A stretch of DNA of 64,000 nucleotides, from NCBI RefSeq assembly GCF_001735715.1, contig NZ_CP017259.1, forward strand, positions 927,501 to 991,500, read 5' to 3'. Positions 43,095-51,100 of the stretch are shown here, one piece after another. The notes under the pieces are model-generated. The model ran no database searches. It saw nothing but the letters and a program-made list of their open reading frames with translations, and had not been told where the DNA came from. A program made the position numbers and the translations under genes. This DNA is from Formosa sp. Hel3_A1_48 (GTDB taxonomy: Bacteria; Bacteroidota; Bacteroidia; Flavobacteriales; Flavobacteriaceae). Positions within the stretch are counted from its first letter, which is position 1. Every line of letters begins with the position of its first letter.

Positions 43095-44636
43095 ATGAAT
43101 AACCAAGGAGATCATTTTAAAAACGTTATTTCTCATGCTAAAGAATACGGGTTTGTATTTCAAAGCAGCGAAATCTACGACGGGCTTAGCGCTGTGTACG
43201 ACTACGGCCAAAACGGTGCAGAATTAAAGAAAAATATACGCGAATACTGGTGGAAAGCCATGGTGCAAATGAATACTAATATTGTTGGCTTAGATGCTTC
43301 AATCTTTATGCACCCCACAACATGGAAAGCTTCGGGACACGTTGATGCGTTTAATGACCCCTTGATAGACAACAAAGATTCAAAAAAGCGATACAGAGCT
43401 GATGTTCTTGTTGAAGATTATTGTGCTAAGATTGAGCAAAAAATAGAAAAAGAAGTTAAAAAAGCTAAAAAACGTTTTGGTGATGCCTTTGATGAGAATG
43501 AATTCTTAAAGACCAATCAACGCGTACTAGCCTATCAAGACAAAATAGAAACCATCCTAAAGCGTATGGCTAGATCCCTTGAAAATGAAGACCTAGCAGA
43601 TGTCAAAGCTCTTATAGAAGAACTCGAAATTGCTGACCCTGTTAGCGGTAGCCGCAATTGGACAGACGTTAAGCAATTCAACCTCATGTTTGGTACAAAA
43701 CTGGGGGCCTCTGCTGAAAGTGCAATGGATTTGTATTTACGACCAGAAACCGCACAGGGAATTTTTGTCAACTTCTTAAATGTTCAAAAAACAGGCCGAA
43801 TGAAAATTCCTTTTGGTATAGCGCAGACGGGGAAAGCATTCAGAAACGAAATTGTAGCACGCCAATTTATCTTCAGAATGCGTGAGTTTGAACAAATGGA
43901 AATGCAATTTTTCATCAAACCAGGAACACAAGGAGAGTGGTACAAACATTGGAAAGAAAAACGCCTAAATTGGCATCTTTCTTTGGGTATGGGTGAAGAA
44001 AATTACCGTTTTCATGACCATGAAAAATTGGCTCATTATGCCGATGCTGCAGCCGATATCGAGTTTAGATTCCCTTTTGGCTTTAAAGAACTTGAAGGTA
44101 TTCATTCCAGAACAGATTTTGACCTCAGCCAACATGAAAAACACGCTGGCAAAAAACTTCAATTTTTTGATCCTGAAGAAAATAAAAACTATGTTCCTTA
44201 TGTCTTAGAAACCTCTATTGGTTTGGACCGTATGTTTTTAGCCGTATTTTCCAACAGCCTAAAAAATGAAGAATTAGAAAACAACTCCACACGCACAGTG
44301 CTAAAACTTCCTGCGGTCTTGGCTCCAACAAAAGCGGCGATTTTACCCCTTGTAAAAAAAGATGGGCTTCCAGAAATAGCCAAAGAGATTTTACAAGAAC
44401 TACAATGGGACTTCAATGTTGCCTATGACGAAAAAGACGCAGTGGGTCGGCGCTACCGCAGACAAGATGCCATTGGAACTCCTTTTTGCATTACCATAGA
44501 CCATCAAACTATTGAAGACAATACCGTAACAGTTCGCTACAGAGACAGCATGAAACAAGAACGTGTAGCTGTGAAAAATTTAAAAACTCTAATTGAAGAT
44601 CATGTTTCTATGAAAAATTGGCTGAAAAATTGTTAA
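43095..44636 (+). CDS. glyS: Glycyl-tRNA synthetase (single-chain, class II)
   Basis: A 513-residue dimeric eukaryote-like/archaeal-type glycyl-tRNA synthetase that charges tRNA-Gly. It has class II motif 1 near LYLRPETAQGIFVNF, motif 2 in GKAFRNEIVARQFIFRMREFEQMEMQFF, motif 3 in YVLETSIGLDRMFLAVF, and a C-terminal anticodon-binding domain. The true start is the ATG at 43095 (MNNQGDHFKN). The -7 box TATTTTTG at 43083-43090 lies only 5 bases upstream, which points to a leaderless or almost leaderless mRNA. Confidence 0.97.
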   Translation: MNNQGDHFKNVISHAKEYGFVFQSSEIYDGLSAVYDYGQNGAELKKNIREYWWKAMVQMNTNIVGLDASIFMHPTTWKASGHVDAFNDPLIDNKDSKKRYRADVLVEDYCAKIEQKIEKEVKKAKKRFGDAFDENEFLKTNQRVLAYQDKIETILKRMARSLENEDLADVKALIEELEIADPVSGSRNWTDVKQFNLMFGTKLGASAESAMDLYLRPETAQGIFVNFLNVQKTGRMKIPFGIAQTGKAFRNEIVARQFIFRMREFEQMEMQFFIKPGTQGEWYKHWKEKRLNWHLSLGMGEENYRFHDHEKLAHYADAAADIEFRFPFGFKELEGIHSRTDFDLSQHEKHAGKKLQFFDPEENKNYVPYVLETSIGLDRMFLAVFSNSLKNEELENNSTRTVLKLPAVLAPTKAAILPLVKKDGLPEIAKEILQELQWDFNVAYDEKDAVGRRYRRQDAIGTPFCITIDHQTIEDNTVTVRYRDSMKQERVAVKNLKTLIEDHVSMKNWLKNC

Positions 44637-44806: not shown

Positions 44807-47650
44807 TTGAAAAATATTCCTCAAAATTGGTTCCCCGTTATCTTACTTTTGTTTTTGACAACAAAGGGGTATACTCAACTTAATGCTGTAATTCTTGGAA
44901 ATGCTTCTTCAAATGGGAATAATTGTTACACAATTACAGAAGATTTGACAACACAATTAGGAGGAGTGTGGTATAATAATCCTATTGATTTCGATGAAGA
45001 TTTTACCATTTATTATAAAAATAATTTTGGTTCAAAAGATTTTTATGGAGCCGATGGGATGGCATTGGTCTTCAAGAGAACATCTGCTTTTACAATAAAT
45101 TCAGCACTAGGGAATTCTGGCGGGGGTGTTGGATATGGTGGAATTGGGGATCTTATTGTAGAATTTGATACTTATAGAAACATTGGCGGAAGTACAGGAG
45201 TTGAAGATTACGGAGATCCCGTATATGATCACATTTCAATTATGACCAATGGTAATCCGAATCATAACTCTGCAACAGATAATTTAGCTGGCCCCGTACA
45301 ACCAACAAGTACAACCACTAATATGGAAGATGGTGTGGATCATAATATTAAAATTGTGTGGACTGCTTCAACACAGACTTTTGAAGTGTTTTTTGATTGT
45401 GAGTTACGATTATCGTTAAATAGAGATATAAGAGGAACTATTTTTGGAGGAGACAGCACGGTGTTTTTTGGGTTTGTAGGTTCCACTGGGGGGCTTTCAA
45501 ATCTTCACCAGGTGTGTTTTAATAGCATCTCTTTTGTAGATAATCTATTGCTGCAACCACAAACTATTTGCAACGGTGAGTCAGCACAAGTTGATGCTGA
45601 AATTCCCAGTGGAAACACTTATACTTGGAGTCCTAGTACAGGAGTAAGTGATGTAAATATTCCAAACCCAACTCTTTCGCCTAACACTACAACTACATAC
45701 ACGGTAACAATAGAAGACGAATGTGGCGAAGCTACTATAGAAAGTGTTGAAATAACAGTTACACCACAAAACACAACAACTTTTGACCCAATTGACCCTA
45801 TTTGTGAGGGCGATTCAAATCCCTTGCCTGCAACAGACATCAATGGCATAACAGGAAGCTGGGCTCCAGACTTCGATGCAACCACGACTACAGATTATAG
45901 CTTTACCCCTGATCCTGGACAATGCGCCACAACGCCTGCGCCTGTTCAAGTCGTGGTAAACCCTATTATCACAACAACTTTTGACCCAATTGACCCTATT
46001 TGTGAGGGCGATTCAAATCCCTTGCCTGCAACAGACATCAATGGCATAACAGGAAGCTGGGCTCCAGACTTCGATGCAACCACGACTACAGATTATAGCT
46101 TTACCCCTGATCCTGGACAATGCGCCACAACGCCTGCGCCTGTTCAAGTCGTGGTAAACCCTATTATCACAACAACTTTTGACCCAATTGACCCTATTTG
46201 TGAGGGCGATTCAAATCCCTTGCCTGCAACAGACATCAATGGCATAACAGGAAGCTGGGCTCCAGACTTCGATGCAACCACGACTACAGATTATAGCTTT
46301 ACCCCTGATCCTGGACAATGCGCCACAACGCCTGCGCCTGTTCAAGTCGTGGTAAACCCTATTATCACAACAACTTTTGACCCAATTGATCCTATTTGTG
46401 AGGGCGATTCAAATCCCTTGCCTGCAACAGACATCAATGGCATAACAGGAAGCTGGGCTCCAGACTTCGATGCAACCACGACTACAGATTATAGCTTTAC
46501 CCCTGATCCTGGACAATGCGCCACAACGCCTGCGCCTGTTCAAGTCGTGGTAAACCCTATTATCACAACAACTTTTGACCCAATTGACCCTATTTGTGAG
46601 GGCGATTCAAATCCCTTGCCTGCAACAGACATCAATGGCATAACAGGAAGCTGGGCTCCAGACTTCGATGCAACCACGACTACAGATTATAGCTTTACCC
46701 CTGATCCTGGACAATGCGCCACAACGCCTGCGCCTGTTCAAGTCGTGGTGAATCCGATTGTTACTCCAACATTCGATTCAATTGATCCAATTTGTGCTGG
46801 CGATAGTATTGCGCCATTACCAACAACTTCCAACAACGGAATTACAGGAACATGGAACCCAGCAACCATTGACAATACAACAACTGACGTATATACCTTT
46901 ACGCCTGATGCTGGTGTTTGTGTAATTCCTACAACGATTGAAATTACAGTTTTACAACAAATAACGCCTACTTTCCTGATAGATGATATTTGTATTGGAG
47001 AAAGTACTGCACAGCTTCCTGTTGTTTCAGAAGAAAATATTTCGGGAAGTTGGTCTCCATCAACGGTGAATAATTTGATAACAACAACATACACATTTAC
47101 TCCAGACCCTGGACAGTGTGCAAATACAACCACTGAAACCATTAATGTCAATCCAATAAATACGCTTTCAATAGCTACAGAAAACACTTCTGCCCCGTTC
47201 GATAGCAATCAAATAATTGAAGTTACAGTAACTGGTGGAAGCGGAAACTACGAATACCAATTGGATGGTGGAATTTGGCAAAACAGTCCAGTGTTTCAAA
47301 ATGTAATTGGATGTCAAGAGCACATTGTAAAAGTCAGAGACGAGGAGGGCTGTAGTAACGAACCTGAGTCCGTAGTCACTATATTGTCCTATCCGAAATT
47401 TTTCACCCCAAATGGTGATGGATATAACGATTTTTGGAACATCGAATGTCTTAAAAACCGTACTGGACTTATTTCAATTTTTGATCGTTTTGGCAAGCTC
47501 CTCAAACAATTTAAAACAACAAGCTCAGGATGGAATGGAAGCTACAATAACACTTTAATGCCGACCAGTGATTATTGGTTTATGGTACGTTATTTTGATG
47601 AAAATGGGCTTGAAAAGGAATTTAGATCGCATTTTACATTGAGGCGCTAA
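44807..47650 (+). CDS. T9SS type B surface protein with L-type lectin-like domain and tandem repeats
   Basis: A 947-residue exported protein. It begins at a TTG codon with a good signal peptide (MKNIPQNWFPVILLLFL, cleavage near GYTQ), and no ATG is close by. Residues about 22-245 form an L-type lectin-like domain (ADGMALVF, LIVEFDTYRN, DHISIMTNG). A PKD/Ig-like region (about 246-325) leads to five identical 66-residue units (residues about 326-655), each with two cysteines and FDPIDPICEGDS / DYSFTPDPGQC motifs. Two diverged units follow, and then a C-terminal gliding-motility/T9SS type B sorting domain (FFTPNGDGYNDFWNI, ISIFDRFGKLLKQ). It is probably displayed on or released from the cell surface as an adhesin or binding protein. 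Confidence 0.9.
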   Translation: MKNIPQNWFPVILLLFLTTKGYTQLNAVILGNASSNGNNCYTITEDLTTQLGGVWYNNPIDFDEDFTIYYKNNFGSKDFYGADGMALVFKRTSAFTINSALGNSGGGVGYGGIGDLIVEFDTYRNIGGSTGVEDYGDPVYDHISIMTNGNPNHNSATDNLAGPVQPTSTTTNMEDGVDHNIKIVWTASTQTFEVFFDCELRLSLNRDIRGTIFGGDSTVFFGFVGSTGGLSNLHQVCFNSISFVDNLLLQPQTICNGESAQVDAEIPSGNTYTWSPSTGVSDVNIPNPTLSPNTTTTYTVTIEDECGEATIESVEITVTPQNTTTFDPIDPICEGDSNPLPATDINGITGSWAPDFDATTTTDYSFTPDPGQCATTPAPVQVVVNPIITTTFDPIDPICEGDSNPLPATDINGITGSWAPDFDATTTTDYSFTPDPGQCATTPAPVQVVVNPIITTTFDPIDPICEGDSNPLPATDINGITGSWAPDFDATTTTDYSFTPDPGQCATTPAPVQVVVNPIITTTFDPIDPICEGDSNPLPATDINGITGSWAPDFDATTTTDYSFTPDPGQCATTPAPVQVVVNPIITTTFDPIDPICEGDSNPLPATDINGITGSWAPDFDATTTTDYSFTPDPGQCATTPAPVQVVVNPIVTPTFDSIDPICAGDSIAPLPTTSNNGITGTWNPATIDNTTTDVYTFTPDAGVCVIPTTIEITVLQQITPTFLIDDICIGESTAQLPVVSEENISGSWSPSTVNNLITTTYTFTPDPGQCANTTTETINVNPINTLSIATENTSAPFDSNQIIEVTVTGGSGNYEYQLDGGIWQNSPVFQNVIGCQEHIVKVRDEEGCSNEPESVVTILSYPKFFTPNGDGYNDFWNIECLKNRTGLISIFDRFGKLLKQFKTTSSGWNGSYNNTLMPTSDYWFMVRYFDENGLEKEFRSHFTLRR
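45781..46770 (+). repeat. Five tandem 198-bp coding repeats
   Basis: The TTTTGACCCA start of the unit recurs at 45781, 45979, 46177, 46375 and 46573, exactly 198 bp (66 codons) apart. The units look identical except for a synonymous C-to-T in the fourth (GACCCT to GATCCT near 46388-46393) and a small change at the end of the fifth. Two more diverged units follow at about 46771 and 46966. Confidence 0.97.
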
Positions 47651-47662
47651 AGCTATAATATA

Positions 47663-50600
47663 TTAAAAATAAGCTTTCAACTGAACTGTTCCTGAATGAA
47701 TTGTACGGCTTGTTTCACTTTTTCTGCCAAAGTAACTTAGATTTAAATCTAAAAATTTAGTCAATTTTTTTTGAGCAATTAAATTCCAAGTGAAGTTGAT
47801 TCCTGGTTGAAGCCCCTCCATCATTTGATAAGCTACAGGGGTGTTAGCATCTCCTTGAAAGAGATTTGAAAAATAATTGAATTCCGCTGTTACAGACGCC
47901 TTTTGATTTTTAGTCATCACAGCAGAAAGGCCTAATTTGTGCTGCGTTAATTGTTCTTTTGCGCGAATTAAATTGTCCTTAGTTTGAAATTGATAAAAAA
48001 TATCAAAACGCTTGTTGTCGTCTAGTAAATAAGAAATTTTTGGATTCAATAAAAACTGATCTAAATCAAAATTCTTTGAAGAATAATTTTCACTCTCAGA
48101 CTTGTTGTTTTCAAGATTAGTTTGAATATTTAACAACCACTGCTGTCGGATTTTATGGGTGAAATTTACTTGATGCGCAAATCTCTTTTGTGCAATAGTG
48201 CCAAATGAGAGTACATTGTTTAGCTCTGATCCAGAAAAACTATAAGAAAAAGTGAAGTGTTGTTTCCCCCTGTTAAAAAATAATTGATTTCGAAAATTGG
48301 ACTGCAAAGCCAATTGATTGTCTAAATCGGTTTGAAGTGGGTTTAGATTTATACTTTCACCGTCGTTCCGCTGTTTACGATCGATCAAAAATGTAGTTTG
48401 ATTGTAAAAATGAGCCCAAAAACTTTTAGTTTTGTTCTTAGAACCGCTCCATTGTATAGGGTCAAATGTTAGGGTCTGACTCAAGCGATTTTGATGGGTT
48501 CGAATATACAGCTGATTTGGTAAAAGTACGCGGATATAAGTGGCTTGGTCCTGAAACTGAGCTACTTCAAACTCTTCCAATTCTTGAATACCATTGTTGT
48601 TGTAATCGAACCATACATAGCTTCCTTGTCCTGGTTCAACCGCTACATAAGTAAAGTCTTGCTGCGGGAGGCGGCCCGAGCTCGTTTCATAAACAGTTTG
48701 CCATTGGACTAAATTTTGTGCGAACTTTTGATCATAAGATAATCTAGAATTGAGGGTTTTTTGTTGAGCTCTTTGCTGGTCCTTAGGATGCAATATCCTA
48801 TAATTCAAATAGGTCCTTAAGTTGGAATTTTGATTTTGAACAATTTGCGCGTTTAAGTAATAAGTATCAGAAGAATTTATGCGTTTGAGGGTGTTGTTTT
48901 GAACACTATCATTTAAACGTTTTATGTAGCCTGCTTTTACAAAAACTTTTGTTGAATCACCAACGCCGACAAAAGCTTCATAAGCAGTGAACCGCTGACT
49001 TTTCAAATCTAATATATTTGATGGAAGTTGAGTGATTTCGTTTTGCTCAGTAGAAAACTTTACTCCAGGCCAAATCATTTTTGCATCATATTTAAGTTCA
49101 GAAAGCGAACGAAAAAAGGTTGATTTAGACTGAGCTCCATCTGTATTCAACAGACTTGTATTTGTTCTAAATTTAAAAGAGTTAAATTCGAGATTAGCAT
49201 CCAAAATATGGCGATTCCCATTAAACCTTTCAGAAAAATTAAGATGTTGAAATTGGTAGCTAATGTGGTTCATCTGTTCATTGCTGTAGGATGCTCCAGC
49301 GGTTACAAAAAGCTGATCTCCTAAATCTGCTATGACCTGATTGCTGGTGGGCAGTTCTAAATTCCAATCTCGATTAAATTCTGGACTATACAGCCCTTCA
49401 AGATTTCTAAAGTCTTTTTGTATATAGTCAAGTTCAGAGTCCACACGTATTTGCCATCCCTTCGTGGTTTTAAAAAGTTGTTGCTCCAAGGCATAGCGTG
49501 CAGCGATGCCATCATTATCTTCATCTGAAATTCCTGAAAACATGTTCAAGTCATTTTTACTCGCTGCTAATTCAAAATTCAAAGTTGTTTTTTCGCTGGG
49601 CTCATAAGTTCCATTGAGCACAGCAAGCTGCAATTGTACTGGCGCAACCAATTGGATAATAGGGGCATAACTCCCTTGTTTTTCTCCTGAGATAGGGGGA
49701 ACATAGGAATAAATATTAGAAATTGCTGCTGAATTGGATACTATGTAATCTCCTTGTTGTGCTCCAACAAATAAAAAATTGACTTGATATAAATTGTCCT
49801 CTGGATTGTTTGAAAATACAAAAACTTCCGTACCCTCTATAATTTCTTTCTTGTATAAAATCCTATTTTCACTAAATTCAGCAGGACTAGCGGATGGGGC
49901 AATCATAAGTGAATTGTCATCCCCAGCATTGGCAAGAATACTCACCTGATCTGAATTTAAATTTTGTTGGAGAGGCTGATTCTTTAAATCATTCTCATTA
50001 TAAAAAGATAAACCAAATTTTAATTTATCGGCATCATACTCAGCACCAGCATAACCTACAAATCGGGTGTAATTGCGTTCGCTATATTGGTAATCAACAG
50101 TAATCCGCATTTCTGAAGTAATAGGATAAGTCGGATTGAAAACAAGCTCACCCGCATTGTAATCAATTAAATAATCCTTTGTTGCGCCACGCTCTAGTGG
50201 AACGCCATTGACATAAACTGTCTCACTTCCGGAAACTACTAAAACAAATAACTCATTGTTAGGTCCTTTGAGCTTATAAGGGCCCTGATTACCTTCTTGA
50301 GCATTAAACTGACTAGTCACAAACTGCCCACGAACTAGCGCTCCAGAAGCATACGCCTTAATCTTGGCTTCTTGATAACTAAATGTGGACGAAACTGAAA
50401 GGCCTTGAACTCGCTTAGAAAATGCCCCAAAATAAGAACTATTGTTTTCTAAATCTATATCCCCTGCACGCAATGCCCATTGATCAGTAAAAGCTTCAAT
50501 AAAAACTTGATCAAACTCATCTAAACGCTGCGAATATCCACTTTGTTGAAGCGGTATATTTGCATCCTGAATAGAAGCTCTTAAAGTTACTTTTTCGCTT

Positions 50601-51100
50601 ATTTTACCACTAATCTGTAAATCCAATTCACTGTTTAAAACTGAGTTTTGGTTGTTGCCAATAGTCACACCCCGCGCGATACTTCCTGAAGTCGAGAGGC
50701 CATCAAATGGCGCCACACTTGTCGTATTGTTTGGCGTAGATAATTGATATAAATTTTGCAATACCCCAGTAGAGTTAACAATAACAGATTGATCAATTTG
50801 CTTGTAGGTTTTAGTCAAAAAACTGGGGTAATTTAAATAAGAAACTTGTATGGAATCTGTCAGCTTGGGCAGTATATTAAATTTCAGCTGAGCTTTGTTA
50901 AAGTCAACTGTATACAATGTAGAATCTATTATTTTGCCATTTTTATCTGCAACATTAAAGTAGGAGGGATTAATACTTAGGCTGTCTAAAACAACAACAT
51001 TGCTTAGAGCAAATTTTTTAGTTTGAAACAAGCTATTTGCTTCCTGCGCCACAGCAAAAGAAGATGAAAATAGGAGTACAAAAATGAAGAACCTATGCAT
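47663..51100 (-). CDS. Large outer membrane beta-barrel protein with a SprA-like segment
   Basis: A 1145-residue protein with a signal peptide (MHRFFIFVLLFSSSFAVAQ). It is rich in alternating beta-strand patterns to the end and closes with a terminal Phe (VQLKAYF), as outer membrane barrels do. Residues about 135-215 contain GSIARGVTIGNNQNSVLNSEL, LQISGKISEKVTLRASIQDANIPLQQSGYSQRLDEFDQVFIE. This arrangement recalls the GNNQ...DENIPIQPEG...DFDKVFI segment of the gliding/T9SS translocon protein SprA, which is about twice as long. Exact function is not known. It is convergent with the T9SS-B protein gene (12 bp apart). Confidence 0.75.
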   Translation of the reverse strand: MHRFFIFVLLFSSSFAVAQEANSLFQTKKFALSNVVVLDSLSINPSYFNVADKNGKIIDSTLYTVDFNKAQLKFNILPKLTDSIQVSYLNYPSFLTKTYKQIDQSVIVNSTGVLQNLYQLSTPNNTTSVAPFDGLSTSGSIARGVTIGNNQNSVLNSELDLQISGKISEKVTLRASIQDANIPLQQSGYSQRLDEFDQVFIEAFTDQWALRAGDIDLENNSSYFGAFSKRVQGLSVSSTFSYQEAKIKAYASGALVRGQFVTSQFNAQEGNQGPYKLKGPNNELFVLVVSGSETVYVNGVPLERGATKDYLIDYNAGELVFNPTYPITSEMRITVDYQYSERNYTRFVGYAGAEYDADKLKFGLSFYNENDLKNQPLQQNLNSDQVSILANAGDDNSLMIAPSASPAEFSENRILYKKEIIEGTEVFVFSNNPEDNLYQVNFLFVGAQQGDYIVSNSAAISNIYSYVPPISGEKQGSYAPIIQLVAPVQLQLAVLNGTYEPSEKTTLNFELAASKNDLNMFSGISDEDNDGIAARYALEQQLFKTTKGWQIRVDSELDYIQKDFRNLEGLYSPEFNRDWNLELPTSNQVIADLGDQLFVTAGASYSNEQMNHISYQFQHLNFSERFNGNRHILDANLEFNSFKFRTNTSLLNTDGAQSKSTFFRSLSELKYDAKMIWPGVKFSTEQNEITQLPSNILDLKSQRFTAYEAFVGVGDSTKVFVKAGYIKRLNDSVQNNTLKRINSSDTYYLNAQIVQNQNSNLRTYLNYRILHPKDQQRAQQKTLNSRLSYDQKFAQNLVQWQTVYETSSGRLPQQDFTYVAVEPGQGSYVWFDYNNNGIQELEEFEVAQFQDQATYIRVLLPNQLYIRTHQNRLSQTLTFDPIQWSGSKNKTKSFWAHFYNQTTFLIDRKQRNDGESINLNPLQTDLDNQLALQSNFRNQLFFNRGKQHFTFSYSFSGSELNNVLSFGTIAQKRFAHQVNFTHKIRQQWLLNIQTNLENNKSESENYSSKNFDLDQFLLNPKISYLLDDNKRFDIFYQFQTKDNLIRAKEQLTQHKLGLSAVMTKNQKASVTAEFNYFSNLFQGDANTPVAYQMMEGLQPGINFTWNLIAQKKLTKFLDLNLSYFGRKSETSRTIHSGTVQLKAYF

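Follow-up and report, generated by a model that had tools for sequence, protein, structure and literature searches.

Results

Adhesin gene and its neighbourhood

In the 64-kb stretch of DNA analysed here (the window), taken from the single contig of 2,016,454 bases that makes up the genome of Formosa sp. Hel3_A1_48, the gene at 44807-47650 encodes a product that, as predicted from its sequence, is a fibrillar adhesin by its anatomy (Table 1). A probable signal peptide is followed by an L-type lectin head, a linker, a stalk of repeated units and a C-terminal sorting domain. The head, which the earlier note had called lectin-like, is assigned to PF18483 and also resembles the solved 'legume lectin' 7elv_E (E 9.7e-28). 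Its ligand may be marine or algal glycans, but this is a guess. No Pfam match was found in the linker. Attachment to the cell surface would occur at the C-terminal end and is deduced by prediction only, from the type B sorting domain of the type IX secretion system (T9SS). The convergent ORF behind the gene gave weak matches to phage tail families, which were below the cut-off and are probably due to chance.

Table 1. Features of the adhesin locus in Formosa sp. Hel3_A1_48 (positions in the window)
Feature	Position	Strand	Basis
Upstream neighbour marking the locus, presumably glyS	43095..44636	+	likeness to glycine-tRNA ligase; beside the head end in 9/9 relatives having the adhesin gene
Adhesin gene (947 aa; listed with a TTG start)	44807..47650	+	ORF, frame without stops
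Probable signal peptide, aa 1-24	44807..44878	+	hydrophobic N-terminus judged by eye
L-type lectin domain PF18483, aa 29-240	44891..45526	+	Pfam E 2.4e-39, 135.8 bits (cut-off 78.3)
Linker domain joining lectin and stalk, Ig-like in appearance	45542..45775	+	inferred from sequence
Tract of exact 198-bp periodicity	45772..46749	+	self-match at lag 198; TRF
Middle units m1-m5	45782-45979, 45980-46177, 46178-46375, 46376-46573, 46574-46771	+	lag-198 self-match, homologue comparison
Stalk unit A	46772..46969	+	58.5% nucleotide identity to m1; tree grouping
Stalk unit B	46970..47167	+	52.8% nucleotide identity to m1; tree grouping
SprB-repeat-like stretch, aa 804-822	47216..47272	+	PF13573, 21.6 bits, below cut-off 28
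T9SS type B sorting domain, aa 861-947	47387..47647	+	TIGR04131 E 1.9e-31, 108.1 bits (cut-off 35); CHU_C PF13585
Convergent 1145-aa ORF, downstream neighbour	47663..51100	-	found in 7/9 relatives

Array of near-identical units

The middle of the stalk consists of five tandem units of 198 bp (66 codons), in frame from 45782 to 46771. Units 1-3 are identical to each other at the nucleotide level, unit 4 has a single change (46390 C>T), which is silent, and unit 5 is identical over 177 nt, its 7 differences being confined to the last 21 nt. The gene therefore matches itself at a lag of 198 over 978 bp with position 46390 as the sole exception. TRF reported 5.2 copies over 45772-46804 and no other tandem array within the window. 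As proteins, the five units (aa 326-655) are 66 aa long and 97-100% identical. Two cysteines are present in every one of the 50 units that were aligned across ten genomes of the genus, and a disulfide between them is plausible from this conservation. Thus, the five almost identical repeats and the two cysteines per unit described in the earlier note were both borne out, except that its coordinates, 45781-46770, were one base off the reading frame. Five other stretches of the Hel3_A1_48 genome that encode T9SS-type C-termini (L088-L092) contained no array with a period of at least 30.

A triplet of units was modelled by AlphaFold2 with a mean pLDDT of 93.1 and a pTM of 0.68. The nearest solved structures were Listeria InlK (Foldseek E 1.7e-4) and the Ig-like domains of Aureispira GhpA (VIA Z at most 6.9); since Z is below 8, we claim only a shared arrangement. 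The pTM and the matches below Z 8 count against asserting that the stalk forms a straight rod. A full-length structure from a four-row alignment was set aside because of its mean pLDDT of 31.6. In profile searches, the unit of the window gave no Pfam match above cut-off, either alone or as a triplet, and the triplet profile gave no match among solved structures. The single-unit profile matched a lysozyme entry (E 1.7e-4), but this value is summed over individually insignificant stretches and was taken as chance. The Pfam scan covered 36 of 37 triplets, one identical triplet being omitted. Scattered families appeared in the triplets from outside the window, most commonly Polyketide_cyc2 (22/36, best E 9.5e-6); we distrust them because their folds and functions disagree. 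Positions occupied by C, G, W, P, Y and F were invariant across units from several genera.

Locus in the genus

Ten further genomes of the genus (G001-G010; Hel3_A1_48 is G000) were searched. The tail of the adhesin was present in nine of them and was not found in G004, which is 73% complete. Since the presumed glyS lies beside the head in all nine and the 1145-aa ORF lies behind the tail in seven, these genes occupy the same locus. As for the other two, the contig of G001 ends just behind the adhesin, before the place of the ORF, and the ORF was not found in the ~2.4 kb behind the tail in G006.

The gene lies on one contig in four of the nine relatives, G003, G001, G009 and G006, with 1, 2, 5 and 6 middle units, respectively. 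Counting G000 as well, five complete genes are available for the genus, and they contain 1, 2, 5, 5 and 6 middle units (one genome per species). In the other five relatives (G002, G005, G007, G008 and G010), both contigs break off within the stalk. Near-identical units were found at the break in G010 (99.0-99.5% inside the array) and in G007 (99.0% for one pair, with one unit on each contig), and a fragment at the break in G002 was identical in 75/75 bases. Only partial units are present at the break in G005, and no near-identical units were found there in G008. In the G001 gene (L101:2747-5209), undetermined codons (X) are concentrated in the stalk units, perhaps because of mixed strains in the assembly.

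Concerted evolution of the units

A tree was made with FastTree from 50 units of ten genomes. Left out of the alignment were the units from the head-bearing contig of G002 and, apart from one 48-aa unit of G010, the incomplete units found where contigs of G002, G005, G007, G008 and G010 end. The middle units formed one clade per genome in G000 (support 0.987), G007 (0.973) and G010 (0.958). The B units of all ten genomes formed a single clade (0.998). The A units of the six genomes with an L-type head (G000 and five others) also formed a clade (0.851), and those of all ten genomes did not. The period is 198 bp in G000, 195 in G006 and G010, and 192 in G007. On these sequences, the middle units of G007 and G010 are shown to have been homogenised separately, with a period other than that of G000. 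The edges of the array differ from its interior in G000 and G010, as unequal exchange within an array would leave them. Homogenisation is partial in G006, where m2-m4 are 90-94% identical, and the five middle units of G009 are diverged (50-64%).

The earlier note had contrasted the five units with two strongly diverged ones next to them. Units A and B are indeed diverged, but judged from the tree they are more convincingly explained as a basal part of the stalk that holds its place across the relatives than as array copies that have decayed. This reading is clear for B; for A it applies within the six genomes with the same head and not to all ten.

Age of the array

In the comparison of G000 with its nearest species, G005, two genes downstream gave dS values of 0.118 and 0.127, the tail of the adhesin 0.175 and glyS 0.358. 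Between the units of the array, 0-1 change was found per ~41 silent sites. An array older than the split from G005 would predict 12 to 37 silent changes (58 codons per unit), and one was seen (Poisson P 7e-5 to 3e-15, the units being treated as independent branches). Because the changes are far fewer than expected, the amplification or homogenisation is younger than the G000/G005 split. The suggestion of recent amplification or gene conversion, made from the sequence of the window alone in the earlier note, is strongly supported by the near-unchanged silent sites and by the per-genome clades of middle units in the homologue comparison. The silent-site age alone does not separate amplification from gene conversion; the differing unit numbers between species indicate that the number does change.

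Arrays outside the genus

At E 1e-40, the lectin head was found in 16 of 299 family genomes, three of which are from this genus, and at E 1e-6 the stalk unit occurred in 9 of 100. Beyond the genus, six orthologues (head E <1e-100) have 2 to 6 recognised units, neighbours being 56-70% identical; the finder requires a W-P motif, and some units were missed. In six further arrays of the unit, the top neighbour identity was 96.0% (G058). Over 27 ORF rows from 25 loci, neighbour identity ranged from ~53% to 100% with the G000 array at the top; the comparison script handles truncated last units badly, as for the value of 64.1 in the head contig of G007 (G007h). Identity of at least 99% was seen among these rows only in G000 and G010, and broken short-read assemblies hide such arrays. 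The protein can do without a homogeneous array, since the middle units are diverged in G009 and partly homogenised in G006, and neighbouring units are only 56-70% identical in the six outside orthologues. In Flavobacterium sp. UBA5153 (L025:6569-8695), a 201-bp array contains ~10.6 copies of the adhesin stalk unit with 88% matches.

Lectin tip

G000 and G005 differ in several segments of the lectin core at a dS of 1-3, far above the flanks. We compared the head (44891-45526) with those of G005 (L095) and G007 (L096). In columns 21-180 of the alignment, 82 sites pair G005 with G007 and 29 pair it with G000, whereas in columns 1-20 and 201-340 the numbers are 14 and 71. Fisher P is 4e-16 without columns 181-200 (2 and 3 sites) and 9e-16 with them, values that are optimistic because the split was chosen after the pattern was seen. 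The pattern suggests that the lectin core is probably a recombinant mosaic, exchanged by recombination in the lineage of G000 or G005.

At the same locus, G001, G002, G003 and G008 (L101, L107, L103 and L105) have another head followed by Ig_7, with related stalk and tail. This head gave a Lectin_C match below the cut-off in G002 and G008; in G001 and G003 Lectin_C is not among the listed matches, but the sequences look like those of G002 and G008. To judge from these sequences, the other head looks C-type-lectin-like in all four genomes. Genome G132 (2,735,158 bp) has both types in tandem, so that differential loss is an alternative to replacement of the head. The stretch concerned (L130:163-7501) carries the gene with the C-type-like head, the gene with the L-type head and a further related gene in tandem.

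Discussion

We consider it probable that the array forms the variable central part of the stalk in a T9SS-exported, lectin-tipped fibrillar adhesin, and that the number of units varies and sets the reach of the protein. Identical 198-bp units would allow unequal recombination or replication slippage, by which modules of 66 aa would be gained or lost in frame. The number of units would then vary within a species and would determine, as has been suggested for Periscope Proteins, how far from the outer membrane the lectin is held. Stalk length probably changes easily and the protein is likely to be a length-variable fibrillar adhesin of the Periscope type; the effect of unit number on reach we infer.

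An unlikely explanation is that gene conversion keeps the units similar while their number stays the same, so that length would neither vary within a species nor have a role of its own. Conversion would equally produce the grouping of middle units by genome, and G000 and G009 do both have five of them. However, complete genes with other numbers of middle units, together with the differing periods, indicate that both number and length change between species.

The published assembly of Hel3_A1_48 is built on 454 sequencing, with a mean read length of ~636 bp, and its gaps were filled using PCR and Sanger sequencing. Such reads are shorter than the 978-bp tract, so the count of five units is provisional, and the stalk is also where the assemblies of five of nine relatives are interrupted. 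The true array might thus be longer, shorter or less uniform than the assembled one, although we regard this as distinctly improbable. The frame is open throughout, units 4 and 5 are marked by a silent change and a right edge of their own, respectively, and near-identical units were seen independently in G010 and G007. These observations imply that an array exists whatever its exact number of units, and we reject an artefact as the whole explanation of the array while keeping it in mind for the exact count.

Selection on the protein, for instance for repeated binding sites, might keep five modules identical without recent exchange and would agree with the residues invariant across several genera, but it is very improbable and we rejected it as the cause of the identity, because silent sites are identical too and the units in relatives differ freely.

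A length-variable stalk, the reading we prefer, places the adhesin beside the Periscope Proteins, to which SasG, Rib, Sgo_0707 and CdrA belong according to PMC8201768. That paper defines them by tandem repeats of >50 residues with >80% identity and bases its survey on a type-culture collection. The units of the Hel3_A1_48 adhesin, 66 aa long and nearly identical, fall within this definition. As in Periscope Proteins, a domain of ligand-binding type lies at the N-terminus (PF18483) and a surface anchor at the other end (predicted). Periscope repeats also build an extended, rod-like stalk; for the adhesin, the confident triplet model (pLDDT 93.1) comes with a pTM of 0.68. Unlike Periscope Proteins, the adhesin is a predicted T9SS type B protein of a marine member of the Bacteroidota, and its unit number is known to vary between species. 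The terms 'Bacteroid', 'Flavobacter' and 'T9SS' do not occur in the text of PMC8201768 or of the review PMC9704523, and among the papers listed by literature searches we recognised no Periscope-like case from the Bacteroidota by title or abstract. Three Periscope features are thus found in the adhesin, one by prediction only, and the decisive feature is a number of repeats that varies between close strains.

SasG and SraP, which are anchored by sortase in Gram-positive bacteria, have stalk domains other than those of the Hel3_A1_48 adhesin. Like it, these staphylococcal proteins carry a lectin of the PF18483 family on a stalk, as given in passages of PMC9210967 and PMC8286594. The passages of the latter list 134 fibrillar adhesin-like proteins with CHU_C anchors, all in Bacteroidetes, and describe no near-identical, length-variable stalks among them (PMC8286594). 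The adhesin shares with these proteins an adhesive domain, a stalk and a CHU_C anchor, its stalk unit being without a Pfam match above cut-off. SprB is a gliding adhesin; it and PG1035 have a type B sorting domain like that of the present protein, which has no SprB repeat array but only the sub-threshold stretch. Both are type B cargo, exposed on the surface and anchored through PorP-like proteins, according to PMC9143113. With VIA, the triplet matched best to 9flw_A (Z 6.9, with 23% identity and an rmsd of 5.9 over 189 residues), a structure of the grappling hook protein GhpA from Aureispira sp. CCB-QB1; with Z below 8, the likeness may go no further than a shared Ig-like arrangement. GhpA was not matched by the sequence profile of the unit or the triplet.

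A wider reading is that the locus evolves at three speeds, with a conserved base and anchor, a stalk whose number of units turns over within the species and a lectin tip that is recombined or replaced. It would then be a T9SS-based Periscope system of Bacteroidota outside pathogens, in which reach and sugar specificity are adjusted so as to favour algal cells or to avoid phages and grazers. We offer this possibility tentatively.

In conclusion, the adhesin belongs to a known kind of surface protein, here in a bacterial group that has been little studied. The failure of short-read assemblies at near-identical arrays suggests that counts from metagenome-derived genomes are too low for such arrays. 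In a marine bacterium associated with blooms, a single locus that combines a fixed base with a fast stalk and a recombining tip would allow the idea of length variation to be tested without host immunity as the driver.
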